45,720 bases of DNA. It comes from a virus. A program made the position numbers and the translations under genes. Under the pieces are notes generated by a model. The model worked only from the letters and a program-made list of their open reading frames with translations, ran no database searches and was not told the DNA's origin. How positions within the stretch are numbered: position 1 is the first letter of the stretch; every line of letters begins with the position of its first letter. The stretch spans positions 1-45,720 of IMG/VR virus record IMGVR_UViG_3300046653_000037. The stretch is one strand, 5' to 3'. Shown here piece after piece: positions 1,740 to 40,890 of the stretch.

Positions 1740-1958
1740 ATGGCAAAGAATAAATCAGAAGACTTTTCTAATCATGAGTTTGTAACTATTGGCGGTATAG
1801 TAATAACCGGAACAGATTACGAAACGATACGCAAAGAATTAAACATGATCCACAATGATAAAACAAATCGGGCTATGTCGTTTTCGTCATATGGGTCACA
1901 AATGTTTACACAGTTAGCGGCTGACATTCGCGCCGGAAAGAGGATGAGAAAATATTAA
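1740..1958 (+). CDS. Hypothetical small early protein
   Basis: A 72-aa protein whose ATG directly follows the TAA of the repeat protein; GAGGTAAAAG lies upstream. It contains VTIGGIVITGTDYETIRKEL and a basic C-terminus (RAGKRMRKY). No recognised domain, signal or membrane span. Neighbouring genes suggest an early, possibly host-takeover role, but nothing in the sequence shows it. Confidence 0.65.
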   Translation: MAKNKSEDFSNHEFVTIGGIVITGTDYETIRKELNMIHNDKTNRAMSFSSYGSQMFTQLAADIRAGKRMRKY

Positions 1959-1968
1959 GGAGCAATGA

Positions 1969-2247
1969 ATGAAGGAAACTGCATCGGCAATTGAGTTTGT
2001 ATCAGAGTACAAGTTCATGGGAACTATCGAAAAGCTCGAAACGTTCAATTCAAAGGGCGGCGGTCTCGCACTGAAAGTACAGACGGGTGAAACTGAAAAG
2101 GCCGTGGATATTCTGACAAGCAAAGGAAATGTGCTTGAGTTTACCGTCAGGGTGTCAAAACAAAAAGCATCGTCAAGCGAACCGGATGAAGATGAAGGGC
2201 AACTCGACCTATCCGATTCCATTCCAGAACCACAGGGAGACGACTAA
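1969..2247 (+). CDS. Hypothetical acidic-tailed protein
   Basis: A 92-aa protein with a compact beta-rich N-terminal part (YKFMGTIEKLETFNSKGGGL, then EKAVDILTSKGNVLEFTV) and an acidic C-terminal tail (EPDEDEGQLDLSDSIPEPQGDD). An acidic tail after a small beta domain is typical of single-strand-binding or DNA-metabolism accessory proteins, and the next gene is a RuvC-like resolvase, but this is a contextual guess. Start supported by AAGGAGC upstream. Confidence 0.6.
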   Translation: MKETASAIEFVSEYKFMGTIEKLETFNSKGGGLALKVQTGETEKAVDILTSKGNVLEFTVRVSKQKASSSEPDEDEGQLDLSDSIPEPQGDD

Positions 2248-2250
2248 GCC

Positions 2251-2817
2251 ATGATAATCAAGCCGCCGGAAACATTGAACTTTGTCATCGTTGATCCTTC
2301 TCTTCGTGCATCCGGCGTCTTGATTTGTCGGGATGGTAAGTTTACAAAAGATTCAGCATATACAATACAAAAAAAAGACCCTGAAAAATATCCGCGCTTA
2401 TGGATGTTAGGATATTATATCAAGCATTTTGCCAAACTCGCGAAAGAAAGAAAATGGGATTTTCTTTTAATAGAAAACTACTCTTTCGGAAGCCAGTCGC
2501 GTTCCGTAACTGTTCAAGGTGAGATAGGCGGCATTATTCGTGCTTGTTTCGCGTCTTGGGATATACCGATAATAGAAATGGAAAACGCTATCTGGAAAAG
2601 CATTACTGGGATAAGGTTAAAGAAAAACTCTGTTCAAGAAAAACGTGAGTATCTAAATGCTGTAGTTGAAAAGTTTAATATGGAGCTTGGGACAACTGAC
2701 GAGTGCGATGCATATCTCATGTTCTATTCCCTTGCTATGATTAGTCGGGGTGAAGTAAAGAAAGGCATCGGGTCAAACATTCGCGAACGACTTGAGAAAA
2801 TGAAAATCAGAATATGA
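2251..2817 (+). CDS. RuvC-like Holliday junction resolvase
   Basis: A 188-aa protein with the RNase H/RuvC catalytic pattern: VIVDPSLRASGV (Asp15), FLLIENYSFGSQSRS (Glu75) and TTDECDAYLMF (Asp150 and Asp153). These four acidic residues match the metal-binding set of RuvC-type nucleases, and the length is normal for that family. Expected role is cleavage of branched DNA before packaging or during recombination in the cytoplasm. It overlaps the next gene by four bases. The exact subfamily cannot be fixed from sequence reading alone. Confidence 0.8.
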   Translation: MIIKPPETLNFVIVDPSLRASGVLICRDGKFTKDSAYTIQKKDPEKYPRLWMLGYYIKHFAKLAKERKWDFLLIENYSFGSQSRSVTVQGEIGGIIRACFASWDIPIIEMENAIWKSITGIRLKKNSVQEKREYLNAVVEKFNMELGTTDECDAYLMFYSLAMISRGEVKKGIGSNIRERLEKMKIRI

Positions 2818-2999
2818 ATTGCCCTTCTTGTGGTAGAGAACTTAAATCAATAAAAAGTCTTATAAGAGGGCGCGGATATCGCTGTTCATGCAAACGAAAA
2901 GAAGTTGATAAAGAACAAATAAAGCTAAACTTTGAAGAAGGGAAAGATGACGGAAAGGGAAAGTTACCGGATATCAGAAACAAAGAAAGCGGTATTTGA
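2814..2999 (+). CDS. Small zinc-finger protein
   Basis: A 61-aa protein with MNCPSCGREL and RGYRCSCKRK, a two-pair cysteine zinc ribbon, followed by a charged tail. It starts at an ATG overlapping the stop of the RuvC-like gene and overlaps the start of the HNH gene in another frame. Likely a DNA- or protein-binding accessory; no specific function is visible. Confidence 0.65.
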   Translation: MNCPSCGRELKSIKSLIRGRGYRCSCKRKEVDKEQIKLNFEEGKDDGKGKLPDIRNKESGI

Positions 3000-3246
3000 G
3001 CGAGACGGGTATATATGCGGAAATTGTGGCCAATCAATCTATAAAAACGGTACGCCTCAATGTGCCCACAGGATCGCGTCAAGTGAAGCAAATAAAAAAA
3101 AGTATGGTGAAAGCGTGATTCATCATATCGGTAACTTAGTCGCAACGTGTTCGCTTAAATGTAACTCAAAATGCAACCTCGGTTTTAGAACAGCGGAAGC
3201 GGAAGAGCTTGCCGATAAAATACGCGATGAACTGTTGAAGGAATAA
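2947..3246 (+). CDS. HNH endonuclease
   Basis: A 99-aa HNH protein. It shows VFERDGYICGNCGQ, QCAHRIA, HHIGNLVATCSLKCNSKCN, i.e. a zinc-knuckle HNH core with cysteine pairs. A start at the ATG at 2947 is preferred over the TTG at 2932 because AAGGG lies just upstream of the ATG. The gene is not next to the terminase, as packaging-associated HNH proteins often are, but in the early recombination cluster beside a RuvC-like gene. It could be a structure-specific nuclease, a host-DNA-degrading nuclease or a small homing enzyme. Confidence 0.8.
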   Translation: MTERESYRISETKKAVFERDGYICGNCGQSIYKNGTPQCAHRIASSEANKKKYGESVIHHIGNLVATCSLKCNSKCNLGFRTAEAEELADKIRDELLKE

Positions 3247-3249
3247 AAA

Positions 3250-4188
3250 GTGAAGTTGCCAGAAAAACTTGAAAAAAGCATAGACGTAATTGGTTTACTT
3301 ATTGCCCTTATAGTTGACTTGATAGTTATACCAATATGTATGATGACAATAGCTCCCGATTTACTTACAAAAATAGCTTTTATATCTATAGGCGTTACCA
3401 TTGTTTTATTTGTGTTTCGATCATGGGCAAAGGGACAAAAAACGGCATGGGTTATTTTTGCATCGGTAGTTTTCTTTTTTGACTTTTCATTTTCGCTTGT
3501 AGTAACTCAAGCACAAAGTGAAAAGATAGAAATATCGCAAGATAGCGAACTTGTAAGGATAGATTACCAAATTAGTAATTCTCAGGTACAGATTCAAAAG
3601 TTGCAGGATGAGCGGACAATATCAACGCGCCCGGAAACGATTGCCAGTATATCGAGCGACATACAGACAGAGAATAATAAAATAAACGGCTTGAGTTTAG
3701 ACAGAAAGGCGCGTGAAAAGGTGTTGAAGCAAACGGGCGGGGTTTATATCACGGCTGATTCTGTATTCACTTCAATACCGGACGCATGGGGAAAGAAACG
3801 ATATATACCTCTATGCGTTTTTGGCTTGATATTTTTAGGGTTACAAATGGTGATAGTTACAAGTATCGATGCTCCGAATAAAAAGATAAAACCAATTGAG
3901 GAAATACCAGAACAGACACTAGAAATAAAACCTTATAACGGAAAGATGAATGTTGACGATTGGATACGGTTAGTGTGGCGCGGAACTGAACCTGATATAA
4001 ACAAGCCGTACATTCCTTCACCCGAAATAATGCGTAAATACTGCGAAATAGCCAATATTCCATGGGATGATGACGCAAAAAGGCTACATGAGGAATGTTT
4101 GACAAAATGCAGGGTAGCCGGATTTTTCACTGATAAAAATGAAATTGTAGGAACGAAAGAAAGGGCGAAAATAACGCTTTACAAATAA
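3250..4188 (+). CDS. Multi-span membrane protein with coiled coil
   Basis: A 312-aa protein starting at GTG (AAGGA upstream). Hydrophobic segments lie at roughly residues 12-35, 40-58, 64-85 and 180-202, with a long Gln/Ser/Lys-rich coiled-coil segment between the third and fourth. The C-terminal 100 residues are soluble and resemble a small DNA- or protein-binding module (KYCEIANIPWDDDAKRL and RVAGFFTDKNEIVG). The topology is similar to ion-transport or signalling membrane proteins encoded on mobile elements, but no family is recognised. The last codons contain the -35 box of the next promoter. Confidence 0.7.
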   Translation: MKLPEKLEKSIDVIGLLIALIVDLIVIPICMMTIAPDLLTKIAFISIGVTIVLFVFRSWAKGQKTAWVIFASVVFFFDFSFSLVVTQAQSEKIEISQDSELVRIDYQISNSQVQIQKLQDERTISTRPETIASISSDIQTENNKINGLSLDRKAREKVLKQTGGVYITADSVFTSIPDAWGKKRYIPLCVFGLIFLGLQMVIVTSIDAPNKKIKPIEEIPEQTLEIKPYNGKMNVDDWIRLVWRGTEPDINKPYIPSPEIMRKYCEIANIPWDDDAKRLHEECLTKCRVAGFFTDKNEIVGTKERAKITLYK

Positions 4189-10297: not shown

Positions 10298-10492
10298 AAA
10301 TCAAGGATAACGGGAGAACGCTGGTACTCAAGCGAGTTAACGATAAAGACGAGTTTTACAAGTGAATGTCATTGTTGCTACTTTAGGTATAAAAAATGCC
10401 CAGAATCAATAATCTGCGATCCTGACAGACACTGGCGTGAAACTCTTCCCTCGAAACTCTCAAGGCTCATTAAAAGGATGGTAAGAAAATGA
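10294..10492 (+). pseudogene. Frameshifted small zinc-binding protein
   Basis: The ATG at 10294 starts 23 codons (MKIKDNGRTLVLKRVNDKDEFYK) ending in TGA at 10363. The +1 frame, entered at the TTTT run 10354-10357, continues in clearly coding style: SECHCCYFRYKKCPESIICD, then a basic C-terminus, ending at TGA 10490-10492. Removing one T restores a single ~65-aa protein with a C-x-CC...C...C metal site. The break may be a real mutation, an assembly indel or a programmed +1 shift. Confidence 0.55.
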
Positions 10493-10666
10493 CACGTAAA
10501 AATCTTGATACATTTTTAGGCTATGAAGTTCGTGTTACCTGTACGGACGGCAGGGATACTGTTCAAGGGAGAGCGTTTCGAGAAAGGGCTATACCAGTGC
10601 AATGATGGTGTATTCTTTCGAGCGTCTCATGTAAAGAAAGTAGAACATATTTTAACTAGAGGGTAA
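10489..10666 (+). pseudogene. Frameshifted small beta-barrel-like protein
   Basis: ATG at 10489 overlaps the preceding TGA and starts MTRKNLDTFLGYEVRVTCTDGRDTVQG; the frame ends at TGA 10603 after 38 codons. The +1 frame from the GGG at about 10567 continues ERFEKGLYQCNDGVFFRASH and ends at TAA 10664. Loss of one base gives a plausible ~58-aa protein (V-R-V-T-x-x-DGR start of an SH3/Sm-like fold). It is the second +1 break within 250 bases. Confidence 0.5.
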
Positions 10667-22383: not shown

Positions 22384-24074
22384 GCGACGTAGTTTTATCA
22401 GTACCAGTCGACGCGGGAGACGTTAACCCTCTTCTTGAATCACTCCAGAAAATAAATGAAACTTTAACTCAAATTAATTCCACAAGCTCATCGGCATTTT
22501 CTCAGTTATCTAAAGGGCTGGATAAGCCTACAAAAGACCTTGACAAAACAAATAAGAAGCTTAAAGAAACTCACAAGACTATTGGCGGAATATTGGATAA
22601 AATAAAAGTATCTGGCCTCATGAAAATGGGAGCCAAAGTACTTGGAGCAGGCGCGGGACTTCTTGGGATATCTGCCGGAGCAATGATGTTCGGAGCGGTA
22701 ATGAATGCCGACAAAAATGTCCAACAGGGATATGAGGGTAAAGGCGTTGGACTGTCTGTTGGCGAGATGAAAGCCTTATCCGTGACCAGCGAGAAGATGT
22801 ACGGGGATCAAGGTAAGTTGTCCACGGCACTAAGCGCATTAACAAAAGTAATGCAAAGTGCCGGAGGTTCCGAAACACTTGCTACTCTAGGATTAAATCA
22901 ACAACAGTTACAAGCAATGAACCCCGCCGAAGCTCTTGCCTCGGTAATGGATGCAATAAAAAATGCACCAACAGATATATCGTCTGAGTATTTGCAAAAA
23001 GCTTTTTCTCAAGCAACCGGAGGGGTAATAGATTTTAATGCAACTGTTAAAGAAGGATCAGGGGATTTAATGTCTTTCTTCAACACCTTCCAGCAAAAAT
23101 ATTCCGGTGTTGATTTTGATGCCTTGCAAAAAAGTTCACAAGCATTAATAGATTTCAAAGCTCAGCTTGATATTGCTTCACAAAAAATAGGCAGTAAACT
23201 GGCAATTCCAATATCCGAACTATTGGATAAGCTTTCTCCTTCGATTGATAAGTTTGCAGGATATATAGGTAAAATAATAGATTCAATATCTCAGGAAGAT
23301 GTTGATAATTTTGTAAATGGTATTGAAAAACTTTTTTCAATTATCGGTAAGGTAGCTGGTATTGCATGGAATGCCGGAACAGGTGTAGCTGGATTTGTAG
23401 AGAGTGCAGTAAAAGATGATGGTCAGAAAGAATTAAATGAACGTAATGAAAAATTAAAAACCGGAGACGTAGCAGGGGCTATAGGTAGCGATTTAGTAGG
23501 AGGCTCGAAGCAATTAGTTGGAGGAGTAATTAAGGAGGCAGGGAATCTGCTTGATTTGTTTGGAGGAACCCCCGAAGAAAGTAAAAAGGCCAAAGAAAAT
23601 CTATCTGCTCCTTTTAAATCTGCTGGGGAAAATATATCTAACGCCGGTAAAAAGCTTACCGTCCCGCTTGACCCTATAACGCTAAAACCTGTTAATAATA
23701 CAAAAACAACACCAGACAAGCCTAAAACTGATTTAGCTAAACCTATGGTACCAGACAAGCCTAAAACTGATTTAGCTAAACCTATGGTACCAGACAAGCC
23801 TAAAACTGATTTAGCTAAACCTATGGTACCAGACAAGCCTAAAAATAGTACTGATAATCAAAATATCCCATATGGCATTAAGCCTAAGAATACATCAGAA
23901 TTAACGACAGGCGTTAATAATCCTAAAAGTTATTACGGATCAAATGCGCCTGTAGGGGAAAGTAAAAAAATAGATTACCATCCCACTTTTATAGTTAAAG
24001 ACTCAAAGGAAGCCGCTAGTACAAACAATGCAAGTCTTGATAAGATAATCCAATTACAGGGTATAGGTAAATAA
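22380..24074 (+). CDS. Tape measure protein
   Basis: A 564-aa protein. The N-terminal half is helical (ESLQKINETLTQINSTSSSA) with a hydrophobic Gly/Ala stretch around residues 82-108 (MGAKVLGAGAGLLGISAGAM), typical of tape measures. Residues 445-490 contain three full copies and a fragment of PDKPKTDLAKPMV. At about 1.5 A per residue, the length suggests a tail under 100 nm. It sets tail length and is ejected during infection. Confidence 0.8.
   Translation: MSDVVLSVPVDAGDVNPLLESLQKINETLTQINSTSSSAFSQLSKGLDKPTKDLDKTNKKLKETHKTIGGILDKIKVSGLMKMGAKVLGAGAGLLGISAGAMMFGAVMNADKNVQQGYEGKGVGLSVGEMKALSVTSEKMYGDQGKLSTALSALTKVMQSAGGSETLATLGLNQQQLQAMNPAEALASVMDAIKNAPTDISSEYLQKAFSQATGGVIDFNATVKEGSGDLMSFFNTFQQKYSGVDFDALQKSSQALIDFKAQLDIASQKIGSKLAIPISELLDKLSPSIDKFAGYIGKIIDSISQEDVDNFVNGIEKLFSIIGKVAGIAWNAGTGVAGFVESAVKDDGQKELNERNEKLKTGDVAGAIGSDLVGGSKQLVGGVIKEAGNLLDLFGGTPEESKKAKENLSAPFKSAGENISNAGKKLTVPLDPITLKPVNNTKTTPDKPKTDLAKPMVPDKPKTDLAKPMVPDKPKTDLAKPMVPDKPKNSTDNQNIPYGIKPKNTSELTTGVNNPKSYYGSNAPVGESKKIDYHPTFIVKDSKEAASTNNASLDKIIQLQGIGK
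23712..23844 (+). repeat. 39-bp tandem repeat in the tape measure gene
   Basis: Three identical 39-bp units start at 23712, 23751 and 23790, followed by a 16-base partial copy. They encode the 13-residue unit PDKPKTDLAKPMV. Perfect identity at third positions shows recent slippage. Confidence 0.95.
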
Positions 24075-34726: not shown

Positions 34727-35266
34727 ATGAATGGACGAAATGAAAAGAGTTTTCTGGTTGTTTTGTGCCTTATGTGTATTATTGTTTTTAGTGCTTGCCA
34801 AACAACCTCTCATGTGATAACGGTAGACACACCAAAAACTGATGGAATAATTGCAGATATCCAAACGGCACAAACGGACGTTGCAAAAACTGCTCAAGGT
34901 GCATCGGATAGTGCGGACGTGATAAAAGAAACCGTCAAGGAAATTGCTGATACAAAAGTGATAACCGAAACGCAAATAAAAACACTGACTGTCTATACGG
35001 ACAAGGAATCAGGGCAAAGAAAAATACTTTCAGATAAAATTGACGAAGTTACCGGATTACTTAATGAGGCAACAAAAAGCCATATTCAAGACAATCAGGA
35101 TAATTCTGTAAAAATTGGAACTATTCAAACAGAACTCGACAAGGTTAAAGTTTCCCGTGACTGGTATAAATCATTGTCATTCAAGTTAATTGTAATATGT
35201 TCTGTACTGATTCTTTCAATAGCGGGATATGTAGTTTTACGGATTAAAAAGATAATAGGAATATAA
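34727..35266 (+). CDS. Unimolecular spanin (u-spanin) lipoprotein
   Basis: A 179-aa protein starting at the ATG at 34727 (AAAGG upstream). N-terminus KSFLVVLCLMCIIVFSAC forms a lipoprotein signal with the lipobox cysteine at residue 24. A coiled-coil, Lys/Asp/Thr-rich periplasmic part follows, and the C-terminus has one membrane span (KLIVICSVLILSIAGYVVL) with a basic end. A lipid-anchored N-terminus plus C-terminal span is the u-spanin topology of phage T1 gp11. It would fuse inner and outer membranes as the last lysis step. A 28-aa frame (34731-34817) is nested in +1. Confidence 0.7.
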   Translation: MNGRNEKSFLVVLCLMCIIVFSACQTTSHVITVDTPKTDGIIADIQTAQTDVAKTAQGASDSADVIKETVKEIADTKVITETQIKTLTVYTDKESGQRKILSDKIDEVTGLLNEATKSHIQDNQDNSVKIGTIQTELDKVKVSRDWYKSLSFKLIVICSVLILSIAGYVVLRIKKIIGI

Positions 35267-35285
35267 AAAACCTTACGAAGGTTTT
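35267..35285. terminator. Short hairpin terminator
   Basis: AAAACCTT at 35267-35274 and AAGGTTTT at 35278-35285 form a perfect 8-bp stem with a three-base loop and A/T tracts on both sides, so it can act on both strands. Directly follows the spanin stop. Confidence 0.7.
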
Positions 35286-35326
35286 CCCCTTGCCGTGTCC
35301 ATAACTCCTCACGTCAAGGGGGTTTT
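35286..35326 (+). terminator. Strong intrinsic terminator closing the late operon
   Basis: CCCCTTG (35286-35292) plus CCGTG pairs with CACG plus CAAGGGG (35310-35321), followed by GGTTTTA. Together with the hairpin before it this closes the rightward late transcript and faces the leftward operon that ends at 35350. Confidence 0.85.
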
Positions 35327-35355
35327 ATCTAGTCAGGTTGAAGCAGTTGTTAGAT
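35325..35355 (-). other. Half attC site (3' end of cassette 3)
   Basis: On the minus strand ATCTAAC (35355-35349) followed by AACTGCTTCAACCTGAC matches the left arm of the attC at 36114-36173 (TCTAACAACTG, then TCAACxTGAC). The right arm is missing; phage terminator sequence begins instead. The methylase TAA lies in the ATCTAAC core, which is perfectly complementary to the start of its own cassette (GTTAGAT at 36120-36114). Confidence 0.75.
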
Positions 35356-36042
35356 GCCATTATACATAAACAGCTTTTCAGCCCGTTTAGGTCTTTCATT
35401 TCCGGTAGTCATCCCCATTTGAGAACTAAACTCCGCTACACACTTAAAGTCATCAGGCGCATTGTATTCTGAAATAACGACTGTATTGTTTTTTGACCAT
35501 TCTCGCACTGTCTGCCAGAACAGTTCGTGGTCAAAACCTGAAAAAGCTCCATACTGTGTAGTTCCTTGATATGGTGGATCACAATAAACCAGCATATCTT
35601 TAGAATTATGCTCTGGAAACAAGCCGTCAATAAAATGAACATCTTTTATTTTCGGGAGTTGTTTCATAAGTGAATTGTGGCTTGTTTGTGCGTAACAAGT
35701 TTTGCCCTCTGGACGTGCGTAACCGCCCCACAGTTTTCCAGCAAAAGAACAACCAATACCGCAAAAAATAGTCATTGGGTCTGTTTGGTTGTTTGTTTTC
35801 CGAACCGATTGGTATTCTTCCTCGCTAACAAAAGTAGGTGGAACCCACCCGTTTTGTAATGCCGTATACATAGCAATCAAGGCTTTATTGCCATCGCTTG
35901 CAATCCTTTTCCCACTAATTTCCTGTAATACCCACGCACCGCCAACAAACGGCTCAAAATATGTTTGATCCAGTTTTCTTACAGATTCAAGAAACGCCGA
36001 TATTTGTTTTCGTGTTTTGCTTTTCCCACCAAGATAATGCAT
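35350..36042 (-). CDS. DNA adenine methylase (Dam, D12 class)
   Basis: A 230-aa protein read leftward; start at 36042 with GGAGGTG four bases upstream. SAM site YFEPFVGGAW at residues 28-37, catalytic DPPY at 155-158 (LVYCDPPYQG), N-terminal MHYLGGKSKTRK in the expected place for target-side contacts, and LFMYN near the end. It would methylate N6 of adenine, probably to protect phage DNA from restriction or nick-based defence. The length is slightly short for Dam. It is the gene of an integron-type cassette, and its stop is inside the attC core. Confidence 0.88.
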   Translation of the reverse strand: MHYLGGKSKTRKQISAFLESVRKLDQTYFEPFVGGAWVLQEISGKRIASDGNKALIAMYTALQNGWVPPTFVSEEEYQSVRKTNNQTDPMTIFCGIGCSFAGKLWGGYARPEGKTCYAQTSHNSLMKQLPKIKDVHFIDGLFPEHNSKDMLVYCDPPYQGTTQYGAFSGFDHELFWQTVREWSKNNTVVISEYNAPDDFKCVAEFSSQMGMTTGNERPKRAEKLFMYNGI

Positions 36043-36074
36043 TTCACCTCCTATAATCTGGTTTAGTTGACTAT

Positions 36075-36103
36075 CCGTGTAACAAGCTACTGCGGTTACA
36101 CGG
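36075..36103 (-). promoter_or_regulatory. Leader hairpin of cassette 3
   Basis: CCGTGTAAC (36075-36083) pairs perfectly with GTTACACGG (36095-36103). It lies 16 bases inside the cassette and 33 bases before the methylase ATG, the same layout as in cassettes 1 and 2. Confidence 0.7.
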
Positions 36104-36113
36104 TTGGCAATCC

Positions 36114-36173
36114 ATCTAACATTTGGATAACTTGCAACGCGCAAGCGTTGTCAAGTTGATCCAGTTGTTAGAA
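36114..36173 (-). other. attC recombination site 2 (cassette 2 / cassette 3 boundary)
   Basis: Sixty bases, read on the minus strand: core TTCTAAC (36173-36167), left arm GGAT-C-AACTTG, AACGC, loop TTGC, GCGTT, right arm CAAGTT-ATCC, core GTTAGAT (36120-36114). The arms pair except for one extrahelical C, and the cores are in RYYYAAC/GTTRRRY arrangement. This is the folded architecture recognised by integron integrases. Confidence 0.88.
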
Positions 36174-36177
36174 ACTC

Positions 36178-36555
36178 TTATTCCATCAATTCAAAATCGA
36201 CAGATTCAGAATAATACCCGTTTGAAGTTCCATACCAGCGAATATCAACCCACCCTTTTATGGTTGCCAGCTTGTAGAACGTCCAAGTATACGAACCATA
36301 TTCAGCGTCTGACGGGTCTTTAGGCGGATGGTCTTCGCTTGACGGATTATCCGCAAACGTAATAGGCGATCCGATGAGGTCATCGAGATTACCACAGATA
36401 TCATCGATTGAAACTGACTCACAACAATCTTGCGAATGATACATTTTATATGTGGTTCCGTCATCGCAATAGAAAATCAGCTCGTCACCGTTGTTGTCGA
36501 TTTTGGTAAGCGTCTTACCAACCAATTCAGAAAAAGGTTTTTCTTTTCCCCACAT
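36178..36555 (-). CDS. DUF7448 protein (cassette gene)
   Basis: A 125-aa protein read leftward, start preceded by GGGGAGGAAAG. It matches DUF7448: [54 protein letters not shown], and the closing [20 protein letters not shown]. The family occurs in phages and mobile elements and has no known function. Its TAA lies five bases before the attC core. Confidence 0.85.
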
Positions 36556-36577
36556 TTCTTTCCTCCCCGCAAATTGT

Positions 36578-36606
36578 CAGGATAGTGCGCGAAGCGCGGT
36601 ATCCTG
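36578..36606 (-). promoter_or_regulatory. Leader hairpin of cassette 2
   Basis: CAGGATA (36578-36584) pairs with TATCCTG (36600-36606), with inner GCGC-GAA-GCGC. It starts 16 bases inside the cassette and ends 23 bases before the ATG. Confidence 0.75.
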
Positions 36607-36616
36607 CTGTTTGTCG

Positions 36617-36672
36617 TTCTAACATTTTGTTCACCTGCAACTACTGTTGTCAGGTGGAACATGTTGTTGGAT
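36617..36672 (-). other. attC recombination site 1 (cassette 1 / cassette 2 boundary)
   Basis: Fifty-six bases, minus strand: core ATCCAAC (36672-36666), arm GTT-C-CACCTG, inner AAC-AGTA-GTT hairpin, arm CAGGTG-AAC, core GTTAGAA (36623-36617). Again one extrahelical C interrupts the left arm. The stop codon of the Zn-ribbon gene (36631-36633) lies inside the site, as is common for cassette genes. Confidence 0.85.
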
Positions 36673-36864
36673 GATGGCGCGATCTTCTATGCGTATGGTG
36701 TACTTTTTAGCACACTCCTTGCATAAGATAACCATTCTGCCAACATTTCCGTCCGGAAGCTCGTCTCCGGTTTCTACGTCAATGTTTCCGTCTTCTTCGC
36801 TTCCGTCTGTATAAACGGTCTTGCGATCACATTTTGCACAATAAAAATAATTGCTACCAGACAT
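36631..36864 (-). CDS. Zn-ribbon protein (cassette gene)
   Basis: A 77-aa protein read leftward with GGAGGAAG before the ATG. Cysteine pairs YCAKCDRKT and LCKECAKKY form a zinc ribbon around an acidic insert (YTDGSEEDGNIDVETGDELP). The last 14 codons are inside the attC, so the C-terminus (VPPDNSSCR) is dictated by the recombination site. Function unknown. Confidence 0.75.
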   Translation of the reverse strand: MSGSNYFYCAKCDRKTVYTDGSEEDGNIDVETGDELPDGNVGRMVILCKECAKKYTIRIEDRAIIQQHVPPDNSSCR

Positions 36865-36888
36865 ATCTTCCTCCTCGCGCCATCTTGG

Positions 36889-36931
36889 TCGAGCGTCAGT
36901 CTAGTGCCGCAGGCGGTAGACTGCGCCTCGA
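36889..36931 (-). promoter_or_regulatory. Leader hairpin of cassette 1
   Basis: TCGAG-CG-CAGTCTA pairs with TAGACTG-CG-CTCGA, with one unpaired base on each side and a GC-rich inner stem. Starts nine bases inside the cassette and ends 25 bases before the ATG. Confidence 0.75.
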
Positions 36932-36934
36932 TCC

Positions 36935-36991
36935 ATCCAACATCTCTTATGCGGTTCTGCATAAGATCCCATACAAATTGTTCAGCCTAAC
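36935..36991 (-). other. 5' boundary site of the cassette array (attI/attG-like or diverged attC)
   Basis: Minus strand: GTTAGGC and GCTGAAC near 36991-36980, a TCTTATGC/GCATAAGA hairpin (36966-36945), then GTTGGAT (36941-36935), the core of cassette 1. The left core does not pair with GTTGGAT, so this is either a diverged attC of an older cassette or the secondary site into which the first cassette inserted. Confidence 0.5.
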
Positions 36992-37029: not shown

Positions 37030-37671
37030 TTACCTCTCCCCTTTCTTTTGACGGTCAGCCCTTTCTTTGGCTTTCAATCTTCTCTTTTCATTTTTTTCTT
37101 TATTTTCTACCCATCGTTCTAGTATTCTTTTTATATAATATGGCCGTAACTCATATGTTGTAAAATTATTTTTGTTCAATATATCATCGGAAATAGTAAA
37201 TGAAACATAATGTCTTTTAGGCTTGTCTTTTATAAGGATCGGGTTTTCTACAATTTCTACAACACCATCAAGATAAACGAATTTTTTTTTCTGTTTTAAG
37301 TAGAAACCATTAATAGTGGAAGGTTTTGACATCCGTTTACTGTCTAGCTCATTCTGTTCTTCATAGGTTTTATATGTTCCATGGTTTTTGTTATAACCAT
37401 GTTCTTTTTTATCTGAATTATAAAAAGCTATATAAAAGCGTTCTCTTTCGTTAAGAAGCTGTTTATCATATTTTGATAATACTTCAAGAGTGGAACATGA
37501 AAAGCAACCAAGTCCATAGATTTCTAAATCATTTATAAAATCCCGGTTAATCATCTTCCTTATTAGCTCTTGTCTATTACGTTTTTCTATATGCTTACTC
37601 TGCCCAACATACACACGGCCAGTAGTATTGTTTCTTATTAAATATATCCCGACCGTGCGTTTTCTTCTCAT
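37030..37671 (-). CDS. GIY-YIG endonuclease
   Basis: A 213-aa protein read leftward. VGIYLIRNNTTGRVYVGQS provides the GIY and YVG elements, followed by IEKRNRQ and ERERFYIAFYNSDKKEHGYN, the latter holding the metal-binding Glu region. The basic C-terminus (RRLKAKERADRQKKGER) could bind DNA. Likely a free-standing homing-type nuclease or a site-specific recombination helper. It overlaps the RHH gene by four bases and directly precedes the cassette array. Confidence 0.82.
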   Translation of the reverse strand: MRRKRTVGIYLIRNNTTGRVYVGQSKHIEKRNRQELIRKMINRDFINDLEIYGLGCFSCSTLEVLSKYDKQLLNERERFYIAFYNSDKKEHGYNKNHGTYKTYEEQNELDSKRMSKPSTINGFYLKQKKKFVYLDGVVEIVENPILIKDKPKRHYVSFTISDDILNKNNFTTYELRPYYIKRILERWVENKEKNEKRRLKAKERADRQKKGER

Positions 37672-37999: not shown

Positions 38000-38656
38000 T
38001 TAAATCTTCCCTTTATCTTTCATATGCGTGTGAAAGTCATCAATGATAGCCTTTACATATCCATCATTCCATCGTGTCCGGCCCATGTCTTCCAGTTCGT
38101 CTATCTTTGCTTTTATCAGGTCGGAGAACTTTACCGTATCCCAAAATGACGATGACTCTAGGAAAACTAGATGATGCGTACCGTCTCCGTTGTCTATATT
38201 CTTGATAACGTGCCCTTTGATTTTATCATCTCCCATATCAGCGACAAGGATAAAAGCAGATACAAGGTTGTCGGGTACGTCTATTTCATGGATAGGCGCG
38301 TAATCTTCCATATCTTTATCGTAAAGGTCTTGAGGAGTAAGGTGTAGGCGCGGGTTTTCATGTTTGAGGATATCGCAGAGATTGGTATACAGTTTCCATA
38401 AAAGGGCGTTTTCGGATACGGTACGATCATCGTAATACGCTTTGATAGTTATTTCCAGTTCACAAGGCTCTTTCCCTTTCGAGACTCTTTTATCATTAAC
38501 GTCAAAAGTGTTTCGTAGCCATTCCCTGAAAATCTGCTTGTATCCGATATCGTAACGGGCTATAAAAACGTTCTTTGCCAGCCCTTGCGCGTTGGTAGAG
38601 ACGAAACGCTTATAGTCTGCTATATCAACTGTTCCACGGAAAAAGAGTTTTTTCAT
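38000..38656 (-). CDS. Hypothetical recombination/nuclease-accessory protein
   Basis: A 218-aa protein read leftward. The middle (RTVSENALLWKLYTNLCDIL) resembles the helix found in NinB/HNHc-type phage recombination accessory proteins, and it follows SSB-like and ERF genes, but the family is not certain. Remaining parts: ELEITIKAYYDDRTV, HEIDVPDNLVSAFILVADMG and a C-terminal helix. No zinc or HNH residues are obvious. Confidence 0.5.
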   Translation of the reverse strand: MKKLFFRGTVDIADYKRFVSTNAQGLAKNVFIARYDIGYKQIFREWLRNTFDVNDKRVSKGKEPCELEITIKAYYDDRTVSENALLWKLYTNLCDILKHENPRLHLTPQDLYDKDMEDYAPIHEIDVPDNLVSAFILVADMGDDKIKGHVIKNIDNGDGTHHLVFLESSSFWDTVKFSDLIKAKIDELEDMGRTRWNDGYVKAIIDDFHTHMKDKGKI

Positions 38657-38833
38657 TTAGTTATTTCCCCAATCAGAATCACAATATCCGTAACTATCTT
38701 GTTCCTCATTTTTTGCCATTTGGTTTTCAACCATTTTCAATATATTTAATAACCACAAGTTTGTTAAAGGTTTTTCTCCATTCTTTTCAACTGACCTTTC
38801 TAATATTTCCATTAATACGATTAGGTCTATCAT
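38657..38833 (-). CDS. Small helical protein
   Basis: A 58-aa protein read leftward; ATG at 38833 is preferred to a TTG at 38845 because AAGGA is well spaced only from the ATG. It contains MIDLIVLMEILERSVEKNGE and a polar C-terminus (SYGYCDSDWGNN). No recognised family. Confidence 0.5.
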   Translation of the reverse strand: MIDLIVLMEILERSVEKNGEKPLTNLWLLNILKMVENQMAKNEEQDSYGYCDSDWGNN

Positions 38834-38849
38834 TTTAGATTTCAATCCT

Positions 38850-38880
38850 TAAAAACAAACCCGCCATATTTCAGACGGGT
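38850..38880 (-). terminator. Possible leftward terminator
   Basis: ACCCG/CGGGT (38876-38880 with 38859-38863) followed, on the minus strand, by TTTGTTTTT. A short stem with a 12-base loop, so it is probably partial; it separates the SSB-like gene from the next two genes. Confidence 0.45.
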
Positions 38881-38895
38881 AAAAGTCGGGTTAGA

Positions 38896-39408
38896 TTAAT
38901 AGTTCGGCGGTGCGTCATCCGGCGCGCTACCGGAATAATCGTCAGGATTGGAACCGTCGGAGAATCCGCTATTTGATTTTGAGGGCGCACCGTTCTGTGC
39001 TTTTTTCCATTCGTCAAACTCGATTTCTGCTTTTGATTTCGGTTCGAGGTAATGTTTTCCATTTTTTGGATTAACCTTTTCGGTTTCAACAAACTCAAAA
39101 ACCCCATGTCTGCCAGGAATCTTTGAAAGTATCCAATCGTCACCCTCGCCGTTTTTGCAGGCTTGCTCAAGGTCGCTCGGCTTCAATTCAAGTCCAACGA
39201 TCCAGCTTGTCAAAAATCTGTTAAACATTTTCGACTGCCAGAGGGTAACGTTAACCGGATGATCGGTTGATTGTCCTAGGCAATAGGTGATATTTAACCC
39301 TTGTGTTCCGGTGTTGGAACCAGTTATATACTTTACCGCAAGTACGGTAAGCTCATGAGTCCCCGGCCCGAAAGAACTTTCATTCTTGTAGTTGTCAGTC
39401 ATTCCCAT
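38896..39408 (-). CDS. Single-stranded DNA-binding protein-like
   Basis: A 170-aa protein read leftward. An OB-like N-terminal part (GTHELTVLAVKYITGSNTGT, LNITYCLGQSTDHPVNVTLW) and a KIPGRHGVFEFVETEKVNPK strand pair, with an acidic, Asp/Ser/Pro-rich C-terminal tail (NPDDYSGSAPDDAPPNY) as in SSBs. In the same operon as an ERF annealing protein, which commonly travels with an SSB. Confidence 0.6.
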   Translation of the reverse strand: MGMTDNYKNESSFGPGTHELTVLAVKYITGSNTGTQGLNITYCLGQSTDHPVNVTLWQSKMFNRFLTSWIVGLELKPSDLEQACKNGEGDDWILSKIPGRHGVFEFVETEKVNPKNGKHYLEPKSKAEIEFDEWKKAQNGAPSKSNSGFSDGSNPDDYSGSAPDDAPPNY

Positions 39409-39412
39409 TCTG

Positions 39413-40294
39413 TTACTCCTCTATCTTTTCATAAGTGATATTGTTGTCAATCATGTACTGACGCAACGCGAGCAATACAGATTTTTTACCTTTGAAGCGC
39501 ATTAAATAAGTTATTTCAGGATCGTTGTCAAAAGCCTCTCCCATTGCTTGCGCGGCAATACTGGCAATTGGTTCGTTTTTTTGTTCCTGAATAGACTCGC
39601 TGTCAAGTTCTTTTTGGGCAACTTGTTTAGCCTTTAATGATTCACGTTCTTTGCGTTCAGCCTCTTCTTTTGCGAGACGTTCGCGATTTTCTCGGAGTCG
39701 GTTGCCTTGCTGAATTGTTGCGCCAATGTCGAGAGTTTCAAGAAAAATAGGCTTAAGCGTATCAACGTCAACCCCAAAAGCCTCAATGGTTTTAATCCCG
39801 TCATAAATATCGGATATCTTCTTTTCGATTTCCTCGAAGATGTCTTTATTCTTTGCGGTTTTATTTAACCATTTCTGGTCAAAAATCTTGTCAAGTTTTA
39901 CAAGATCAAAGTTTTGAACAGACCAGAACTGTTCAATTTGTGCGCGCTTGATTGACTTCTCTTCATCTTCTTTTACCTTTACAATCGCATCAAGCGCAAG
40001 AGACGCGGAATCGATTTTCTTTTCAACTCGCTTGCATTTTTCTTCAAAGGTATCAATACCGAAGCGTGCAAAGGCGCGCTTGATAATATCGATACGTTTG
40101 GCTGATACGGTTTTTTTGGAAGCGTTTAAGGTAGCGCGGTCTTTTTTTGCCGAGTCCGCGTCTCCCTTGTAATTTTCAGGGGTATACTCAAGAAGTTTTT
40201 CGTCAACAAATATTTCAAGTTCATCAACGTTTGTTTCTAGTTTTCCCGTGTCAACCGCTTTTTCAATTAAAGCGATTTCCCTTGATTCACTCAT
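39413..40294 (-). CDS. DUF1351 protein
   Basis: A 293-aa helical protein read leftward. ALIEKAVDTGKLETNVDELE, YTPENYKGDADSAKKDRATL, NASKKTVSAKRIDIIKRAF and FEEKCKRVEKKIDSASLALD match DUF1351, common between the SSB and recombinase genes of phages. A long coiled coil and a short C-terminal helical domain (YLMRFKGKKSVLLALRQYMI) follow. Probably a recombination accessory. Overlaps the ERF stop by four bases. Confidence 0.75.
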   Translation of the reverse strand: MSESREIALIEKAVDTGKLETNVDELEIFVDEKLLEYTPENYKGDADSAKKDRATLNASKKTVSAKRIDIIKRAFARFGIDTFEEKCKRVEKKIDSASLALDAIVKVKEDEEKSIKRAQIEQFWSVQNFDLVKLDKIFDQKWLNKTAKNKDIFEEIEKKISDIYDGIKTIEAFGVDVDTLKPIFLETLDIGATIQQGNRLRENRERLAKEEAERKERESLKAKQVAQKELDSESIQEQKNEPIASIAAQAMGEAFDNDPEITYLMRFKGKKSVLLALRQYMIDNNITYEKIEE

Positions 40295-40890
40295 TTACCA
40301 GCCTCCTGTTTTTTTGCCCATTCATTCCATTTGACAATGTTCTCAAGATTTTTTGCAGTGATTGCATTTTTAGCCTTTACGGCATTCTCTCCTGCTACAA
40401 TACCGCTTGCAATAAATGACTCAAGTGTTACTGTCTGTTTTTCAAGTTCTGCCTTAGCATCTTTTTCAAGTATGGTATCAGGTTTTTTTGTATCGTAAAG
40501 TTTCCCCGATGACCCGTTACCATCGTCATCCTCTTGCGCAATATTAAAAAGCGCGGCGAGTTGGTAACGCCTTGCATAAGTGATAGCGGAACCGGCTTGC
40601 TGAGGATCGTTCTTTGATAACGGCAAAGTAATTGTTCCTTCAATCCATTGTCCTGATTCATGGATGATTCTACAATTAACCGATGCAGTATTTCCGCTAC
40701 CTTCAGGCGATTGAATGATAGCCATTTTGTTGGTAAATAAAACTTCTTTCGTAACGTCGATTAGCTCCGAAAGATCAGCGTACTTGCTTTTGTAAAACGG
40801 ATTAGCGCAGGTTTTTTTTGCATTACCCATTTCAGACTGTGCCTTGATTAAAGCAGGAAAAATCAAGTCTACCTTTTCGGATGTTAACAT
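40291..40890 (-). CDS. ERF-family single-strand annealing protein
   Basis: A 199-aa protein read leftward, AAGGAGA upstream. ERF landmarks: ANPFYKSKYADLSELIDVTK, IIHESGQWIEGTITLPLSKN, DPQQAGSAITYARRYQLAAL. It would anneal complementary single strands during phage recombination. The length is typical of short ERF proteins. Confidence 0.85.
   Translation of the reverse strand: MLTSEKVDLIFPALIKAQSEMGNAKKTCANPFYKSKYADLSELIDVTKEVLFTNKMAIIQSPEGSGNTASVNCRIIHESGQWIEGTITLPLSKNDPQQAGSAITYARRYQLAALFNIAQEDDDGNGSSGKLYDTKKPDTILEKDAKAELEKQTVTLESFIASGIVAGENAVKAKNAITAKNLENIVKWNEWAKKQEAGK

Follow-up and report, generated by a model that had tools for sequence, protein, structure and literature searches.

The minus strand of a myophage genome carries, between 36.97 and 35.33 kb, three integron-type gene cassettes headed by an attI-like site. 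The genome is IMG/VR virus record IMGVR_UViG_3300046653_000037, analyzed whole (45,720 bases, hereafter the window). We consider it likely that the feature is an integrase-less integron platform whose cassettes are exchanged by an integrase acting in trans. We observed the structure and boundaries of the array, its membership of a wider family, the absence of a recombinase gene and cassettes common to unrelated phages. Integrase-less arrays (CALINs) in phages, including phage TJE1, are described by Qi et al. 2023 (PMC9892861), and the idea of phage integron cassettes is therefore not wholly new; new here are the phage attI, a phage-wide cassette family and a hairpin in the cassette leader.

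The window encodes terminase, portal, head morphogenesis, tail sheath, baseplate, endolysin, DnaB helicase, Erf and NinB-like proteins, and the tail sheath (phrog_205), baseplate wedge (phrog_6) and terminase genes bear out its identification as a myophage in the first-pass annotation. The array lies on the minus strand between recombination genes (38.0-40.9 kb) and the end of the late genes; homologues of these recombination genes flank the arrays of two other viral contigs, G005 and G018. A GIY-YIG homing-type endonuclease gene (37030-37671) separates array and recombination genes in the window. Close relatives were few or none with terminase, tail sheath and cassette 3 as queries, and a nucleotide search of INPHARED with window positions 25.0-45.7 kb gave no match. 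A window phage protein had no match in 385 Spirochaetia genomes, in a search run without a positive control. Virus contig collections can include misassigned contigs, and the array-bearing contigs might on that account be bacterial integrons miscalled as viral. We regard this as highly improbable, given portal, terminase, tape measure, sheath and baseplate genes on the same contigs, the presence of the same elements in TJE1, a cultured lytic phage, and an intact-looking prophage in G037. The contigs are mainly fragmentary.

Table 1. Features of the cassette array and its neighbourhood in the window
Feature	Position	Strand	Basis or detail
attI-like array start	36935..36970	-	leave-one-out matrix score 14.2
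Parts of attI-like site	palindrome CTTATGC (36965-36959)..GCATAAG (36952-36946), AGAT, core G/TTGGAT (36941-36935)	-	sequence
Cassette 1 (TT of own core to G before next core)	36623..36940	-	GTTGGAT/ATCCAAC complementarity
Cassette 1 cores	GTTGGAT 36941-36935, ATCCAAC 36672-36666	-	sequence
Cassette 1 leader hairpin	36884..36941	-	model R1 47.7 bits, E=1.2e-9; in training set A1
Cassette 1 gene, 77 aa, without Pfam family, runs into own attC	36631..36864	-	ORF
attC 1, 56 nt	36617..36672	-	scanner, fold, attC model 39.9 bits, E=2.5e-8
Cassette 2	36120..36622	-	own core GTTAGAA/TTCTAAC
Cassette 2 cores	GTTAGAA 36623-36617, TTCTAAC 36173-36167	-	7/7 complementary
Cassette 2 leader hairpin	36563..36623	-	model R1 50.9 bits, E=1.7e-10; in training set
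Cassette 2 gene, 125 aa, DUF7448 (PF24240)	36178..36555	-	Pfam E=6.7e-33; PHROG 2650 E=1.3e-51
attC 2, 60 nt	36114..36173	-	scanner, fold, attC model 53 bits, E=3.1e-12
Cassette 3, 3' end truncated	35332..36119	-	own core GTTAGAT/ATCTAAC
Cassette 3 cores	GTTAGAT 36120-36114, ATCTAAC 35355-35349	-	7/7 complementary
Cassette 3 leader hairpin	36060..36120	-	model R1 56 bits, E=7.3e-12; in training set
Cassette 3 gene, 230 aa, D12-class N6-adenine DNA methyltransferase	35350..36042	-	PF02086 E=6.7e-15
Terminal half attC, R''-L''-GAC, right half missing	35332..35355	-	sequence
Two terminator-like hairpins past half attC	35258..35325	-	fold of 35356-35255, z=-4.7
Recombination genes upstream of array, same strand	38000..40890	-	NinB/Orf-like, PHROG 674, Erf
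NinB/Orf-like gene	38000-38656	-	upstream recombination gene
PHROG 674 gene	39413-40294	-	upstream recombination gene
Erf gene	40291-40890	-	upstream recombination gene

A structure scanner, set to demand cores and spacers plus a stem in which one base is extrahelical, picked out exactly two sites in the 45.7-kb window (36672-36617 and 36173-36114), the expectation for a shuffled genome being 0.1. Folded as single-stranded DNA, the bottom strands of attC 1 and attC 2 were much more stable than shuffled sequence (z-scores of -4.6 and -7.9), which, together with the scanner, confirms the two complete folding sites of 56 and 60 nt proposed in the first-pass annotation. Both were also recovered by a covariance model trained solely on sites from bacterial genome records (mostly spirochaete, middles removed), which over 238 kb found nothing else convincing except the TJE1 sites. 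The sites follow the attC consensus RYYYAAC/GTTRRRY with L stems bearing one extrahelical base, except that GTTAGAA deviates at the last Y. Rfam gave no match for the attC sites or the leader hairpin.

Beyond the window, a pattern built from attC 2 and the half site matched 29 stretches in viral contigs and 52 in bacterial genomes, the latter largely in MAGs of Treponema and other Spirochaetales, and a second pattern (the attC right arm) added nine viral stretches. The attC type is closest to that of spirochaetes. Relaxing the scanner yielded 155 sites in the window and the pattern-matched loci (1.03 Mb, with some stretches present twice) and none in shuffled sequence. Sites in viral contigs were short (median 59 nt; 44/47 at most 70 nt), whereas those in bacterial genomes were mostly long (median 111 nt). 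A rule that phage attC are short and chromosomal attC long was nevertheless rejected: six intI loci in complete-looking genomes of the Treponema RGIG7872 family have sites of 63-66 nt, so the difference in length is a property of the sample. Sites of 63-68 nt are also known from T. denticola (PMC3607928). In the GC-rich contigs G021 (L205-L206) and L088 (GC 0.62), an attC of the window family comes without a leader and may belong to a coding frame.

In all three window cassettes, the start core is complementary to the cassette's own end core, as a mobile circle requires, and these perfect complementarities stand in the sequence just as first described. With two complete attC sites and one half site within 1.4 kb and no PF00589 domain in the window, the array qualifies as a CALIN. 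The first-pass annotation described it as a gene cassette array without integrase and placed it at 35325-36991. The cassettes, the genuine attC sites and the lack of an integrase all hold; description and limits, however, need revision, because an attI-like site stands upstream of cassette 1 and opens the array. The array is therefore more than an attC cluster, and its functional unit extends from 36970 to 35332.

This start site is common to 17 array starts, those of the window and other viral contigs, where it lies directly upstream of the first cassette; it opens arrays in at least a dozen viral contigs besides the window. It is built of a palindrome, TTAGGCTGAACAGTCTAA, whose variants are changed on both arms, followed by a few bases and then G/TT. 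Scoring 2,243 GTTRRR sites in viral contigs with an array-start matrix separated 16 sites at ≥9.6 from the next best at 4.2. In a scan of 2.9 million viral contigs, the partial motif occurred in eight stretches, all of them in contigs already known to bear arrays. Spirochaete intI loci have a related sequence between intI and the first cassette (for example, GGAACAGTCCAATCAAT before GTTAGGG, compared with CTGAACAGTCTAATATAT before GTT in phages), and in 11 such loci the phage-site matrix put the chromosomal attI at the top of the candidate sites ten times and in second place once. By similarity, the start of the window array thus qualifies as a putative attI site.

Several lines of evidence point to cassette movement. 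For 34 cassettes, the preceding attC gave an independent definition of the start; the own end core matched perfectly in 23 of them, against 2.9 expected and a maximum of 10 in 10,000 permutations, while the two cores within one attC, which belong to different cassettes, matched in 2/47. Since own cores match and cores within an attC mostly do not, the cassettes appear to travel as circles. One cassette is 97% identical over 383 nt between contigs G010 and G018, which have almost no similarity elsewhere; it lies behind attI in one and behind an attC in the other, the two flanks have no homology in common, and identity begins at GTT. Another is shared by G002 and G012 (98.9% over 352 nt). The arrays of the window, G005 and G018 occupy the same place beside homologous recombination genes with differing contents, so that related phages present the same locus differently filled. 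G003 and G020 are colinear, and at the position of the attI-cassette-half attC unit of G020, G003 has an unrelated small gene. In G024, the cassette adjoining the phage attI has the long attC and the short leader of chromosomal cassettes, and a phage-type cassette comes after it; judged by these elements, the first of the two is a bacterial-type cassette within a phage array. One TJE1 attC differs from a G024 attC solely in the core of the next cassette. The chromosomal-type cassette behind the phage attI in G024 (L200, about 1756-3980) encodes a 729-aa protein that is subtilase-like by eye.

These exchanges could have another driver. The repeated leaders and attC sites could swap cassettes by homologous recombination through the phage's Erf-type protein, and homologous or relaxed annealing recombination (Erf, NinB) at such repeats might be what moves cassettes, any role of an integrase being long past. 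Array phages can indeed encode Erf-type proteins (the window, G005 and TJE1), and leaders of 63-74 nt are 93-97% identical across cassettes with different genes. We nonetheless think this unlikely: the G010/G018 cassette begins exactly at GTT between non-homologous flanks, own cores stay with their cassette, and G024 holds a chromosomal-type cassette at a phage attI. Less likely still is an inert relic, copied once from a host integron and now consisting of genes with old repeats. Although the truncated last attC and a phage without an integrase would suit a relic, neither stems nor cores have decayed, the corresponding place in related phages is filled with other cassettes, and nearly identical cassettes turn up in unrelated phages. 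The original suggestion that the phage picked up its cassettes in one host is likewise too simple, as the cassette form, a short attC plus a two-stem leader, is common to many unrelated phages, the cultured Tetrasphaera phage TJE1 included.

Exchange by an integrase in trans calls for a source of the enzyme. As the first-pass annotation states, the window encodes none: PF00589 (tyrosine recombinase) was absent from the window and 20 related viral records, with a positive PF00589 control, and TIGR02249 (integron integrase) from 25 related viral contigs, a list outside which the window falls. The intI gene of a complete integron is thus missing from the window. Of 24 genomes carrying the window attC type, 11 have a full-length IntI gene, as do 36/118 genomes of the family of Treponema RGIG7872. 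One Spirochaetales genome combines a phage-type array in a prophage (with terminase, portal, major head protein and tape measure genes) with IntI on another contig. Qi et al. 2023 (PMC9892861) showed IntI1-mediated recombination with attI1 for five of six phage attC sites; these include the two TJE1 sites tested, TJE1_attC1 and TJE1_attC2, which recombined in E. coli. The result indicates that attC sites of the window family work with an integrase supplied in trans. The natural enzyme would be a host IntI acting in trans. In the mechanism we propose, a phage copy of attI would head the three cassettes, and a host or co-resident element would supply the integron integrase. This enzyme would recombine a folded attC strand, with either the phage attI or a second attC as partner, resulting in capture, swap or loss of cassettes. 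Such turnover would let the phage try out small accessory genes, frequently for DNA methyltransferases or other kinds of DNA modification, which would blunt host restriction. On this model the window array may be active now.

The product of cassette 1 has a counterpart in L100, which carries a homologous C-terminal segment and a near-identical attC. DUF7448, encoded by cassette 2, is common in phages, and attC occurs at almost none of its loci. Cassette 3 encodes a DNA methyltransferase, and other arrays carry Mom (two), N6/N4 methyltransferase (two), Dam (two) and RtcB genes; DNA modification is frequent among the larger cassettes. Such cargo fits an anti-restriction function, which we infer for the window as well, and Qi et al. 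(PMC9892861) make the same point for phage cassettes.

In all window cassettes, and in most of those from related phages, a two-stem hairpin with a bulged A starts one base past the core, an element missing from the first description of the cassettes. The leader of cassette 3 shares ~94% identity with leaders that stand before different genes in G007 and G011. Across 46 sequences, 87.3% of cells pair (62.0 when shuffled), 12/13 pairs show changes in both partners, and covariation scores 0.591, compared with 0.167 (sd 0.015) for shuffled alignments and ≤0.133 for slid pairings. A leader model gave 69 matches (E ≤ 2.4e-6), in the window, in viral loci, in L118 (the same contig as viral G006) and in two small MAG contigs (L137 and L164), with no comparable match on the chromosomal cassettes searched. 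Because this model was trained on the leaders of the window and on most of the viral ones, its independent support comes from specificity, TJE1 and the prophage; TJE1, outside the training set, has three matches (E ≤ 1.2e-7). Under a strict setting, 395 Spirochaetia genomes gave no match in a search without a positive control, and a laxer search with controls, covering 23 genomes and records, located leaders in three bacterial genomes. Leaders thus occur in phages, in the cultured lytic phage TJE1 and in one spirochaete prophage. L164, a small contig filed under an Oscillospiraceae MAG, contains six tRNA genes and three phage-type leaders and is probably a phage fragment.

We regard the leader hairpin as a candidate for a new functional element of integron cassettes; under the broader hypothesis given below, it would represent a previously undescribed part of their recombination or expression machinery. 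Whether it is instead an mRNA element that controls translation or transcription, unconnected to recombination, is nearly a matter of balance, and we lean slightly against it. The leader lies in the 5' UTR: the start codon is 50-78 nt past GTT in nearly all cassettes, and 46/50 have a ribosome site. RNA under selection is expected to show more G-U pairs than the ~2% of paired cells in the leader alignment, which favors, though not decisively, selection on DNA over RNA. The immediate proximity of the hairpin to the recombination core also speaks against a pure mRNA role, as does the lower stem with its bulged A, which is common to phage and chromosomal cassettes, the latter usually retaining this stem only (GACGCCTTCGGCGC).

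The 3' end of the array is also recurrent. About ten arrays, that of the window among them, end in an attC broken off in the loop beyond its left arm, and a ribosome site and a phage gene often begin only a few bases further on. With half of its attC lost, the terminal cassette should not be excisable. Partial attC loss is known from fused cassettes of class 1 integrons (PMC4670013, available portion); the phage loss differs in recurring at the 3' end with the cut in the hairpin loop. The stop codon of the cassette gene is the TAA of R'' in 22/50 cassettes and falls at the L'' position in 8/50. Retention of the half attC solely for its stop codon was considered and rejected, because many stops lie already in R'' and the retained L'' part would be left unexplained. 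Cassette proteins in G007 (L099), G011 (L167), G001 (L203) and G012 (L174) end in TTAST or TTGST because the reading frame enters the attC, which provides the stop codon. Past the half attC of the window, the two hairpins read CCCCCTTG..CAAGGGG and AACCTTCGTAAGGTT plus a T run, with a 9-codon ORF inside. In L194 (G008 80001-91440), a stretch resembling a tRNA T-arm and 3' end follows the half attC near contig position 84466.

Among known systems, the closest comparison is TJE1, a lytic phage listed from the actinobacterium Tetrasphaera jenkinsii with three attC sites and three leaders of the window family. Its CALIN resembles the window array in attC family, in the two-stem leader on all three cassettes, in a palindromic start site ahead of cassette 1, in a methyltransferase gene and in having no integrase reported; it differs in phage and annotated host and in that all three attC sites are complete. 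In the available portion of PMC9892861, the start site is read as a terminator with inverted cores and the leader hairpin is not described. Spirochaete chromosomal integrons (such as those of Treponema) share with the window the attC arms, the attI sequence upstream of GTT and the bulged-A hairpin at the cassette start; their cassettes lie on the intI strand. Unlike the window, they encode IntI, have a leader consisting of the lower stem only and, in our sample, mostly longer attC sites (medians above). The CALINs of Polaribacter phage P12002L and Myoviridae MW202573 are likewise attC clusters without an integrase and with methyltransferase or Mom-like genes, and they contained no leader-model match and no attC of the window type.

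Phage integrons were previously described as sporadic; our evidence points to a recurrent platform, in that many unrelated phages have attI, cassette form and type of cargo in common, with direct traces of exchange both between phages and between phages and bacterial integrons. The presence of the same integrase-less arrangement with a docking site in many unrelated phages suggests a bacterial enzyme, borrowed by the phages, as the means by which they trade useful genes. A broader hypothesis, which we hold to be evenly poised, is that diverse phages keep a platform of their own (attI and a private pool of short-attC, hairpin-bearing cassettes), borrow the integrase of the infected cell and trade counter-restriction genes with other phages and bacterial integrons. 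How phages without a recombinase could acquire anti-restriction genes becomes testable, and the attI matrix and leader model together provide a sequence signature for finding more arrays.

Elsewhere in the window, a 61-nt stretch upstream of the terminase gene (10433-10493) is 95% identical to the otherwise mostly unrelated phage G018 and has no stable RNA fold. The tape-measure gene contains a perfect 39-nt tandem repeat of 3.4 copies (23711-23844), and a DUF7666 gene (693-1739) contains 19 tandem copies of a 27-nt unit (1021-1533), to which a repeat in G019 is related.
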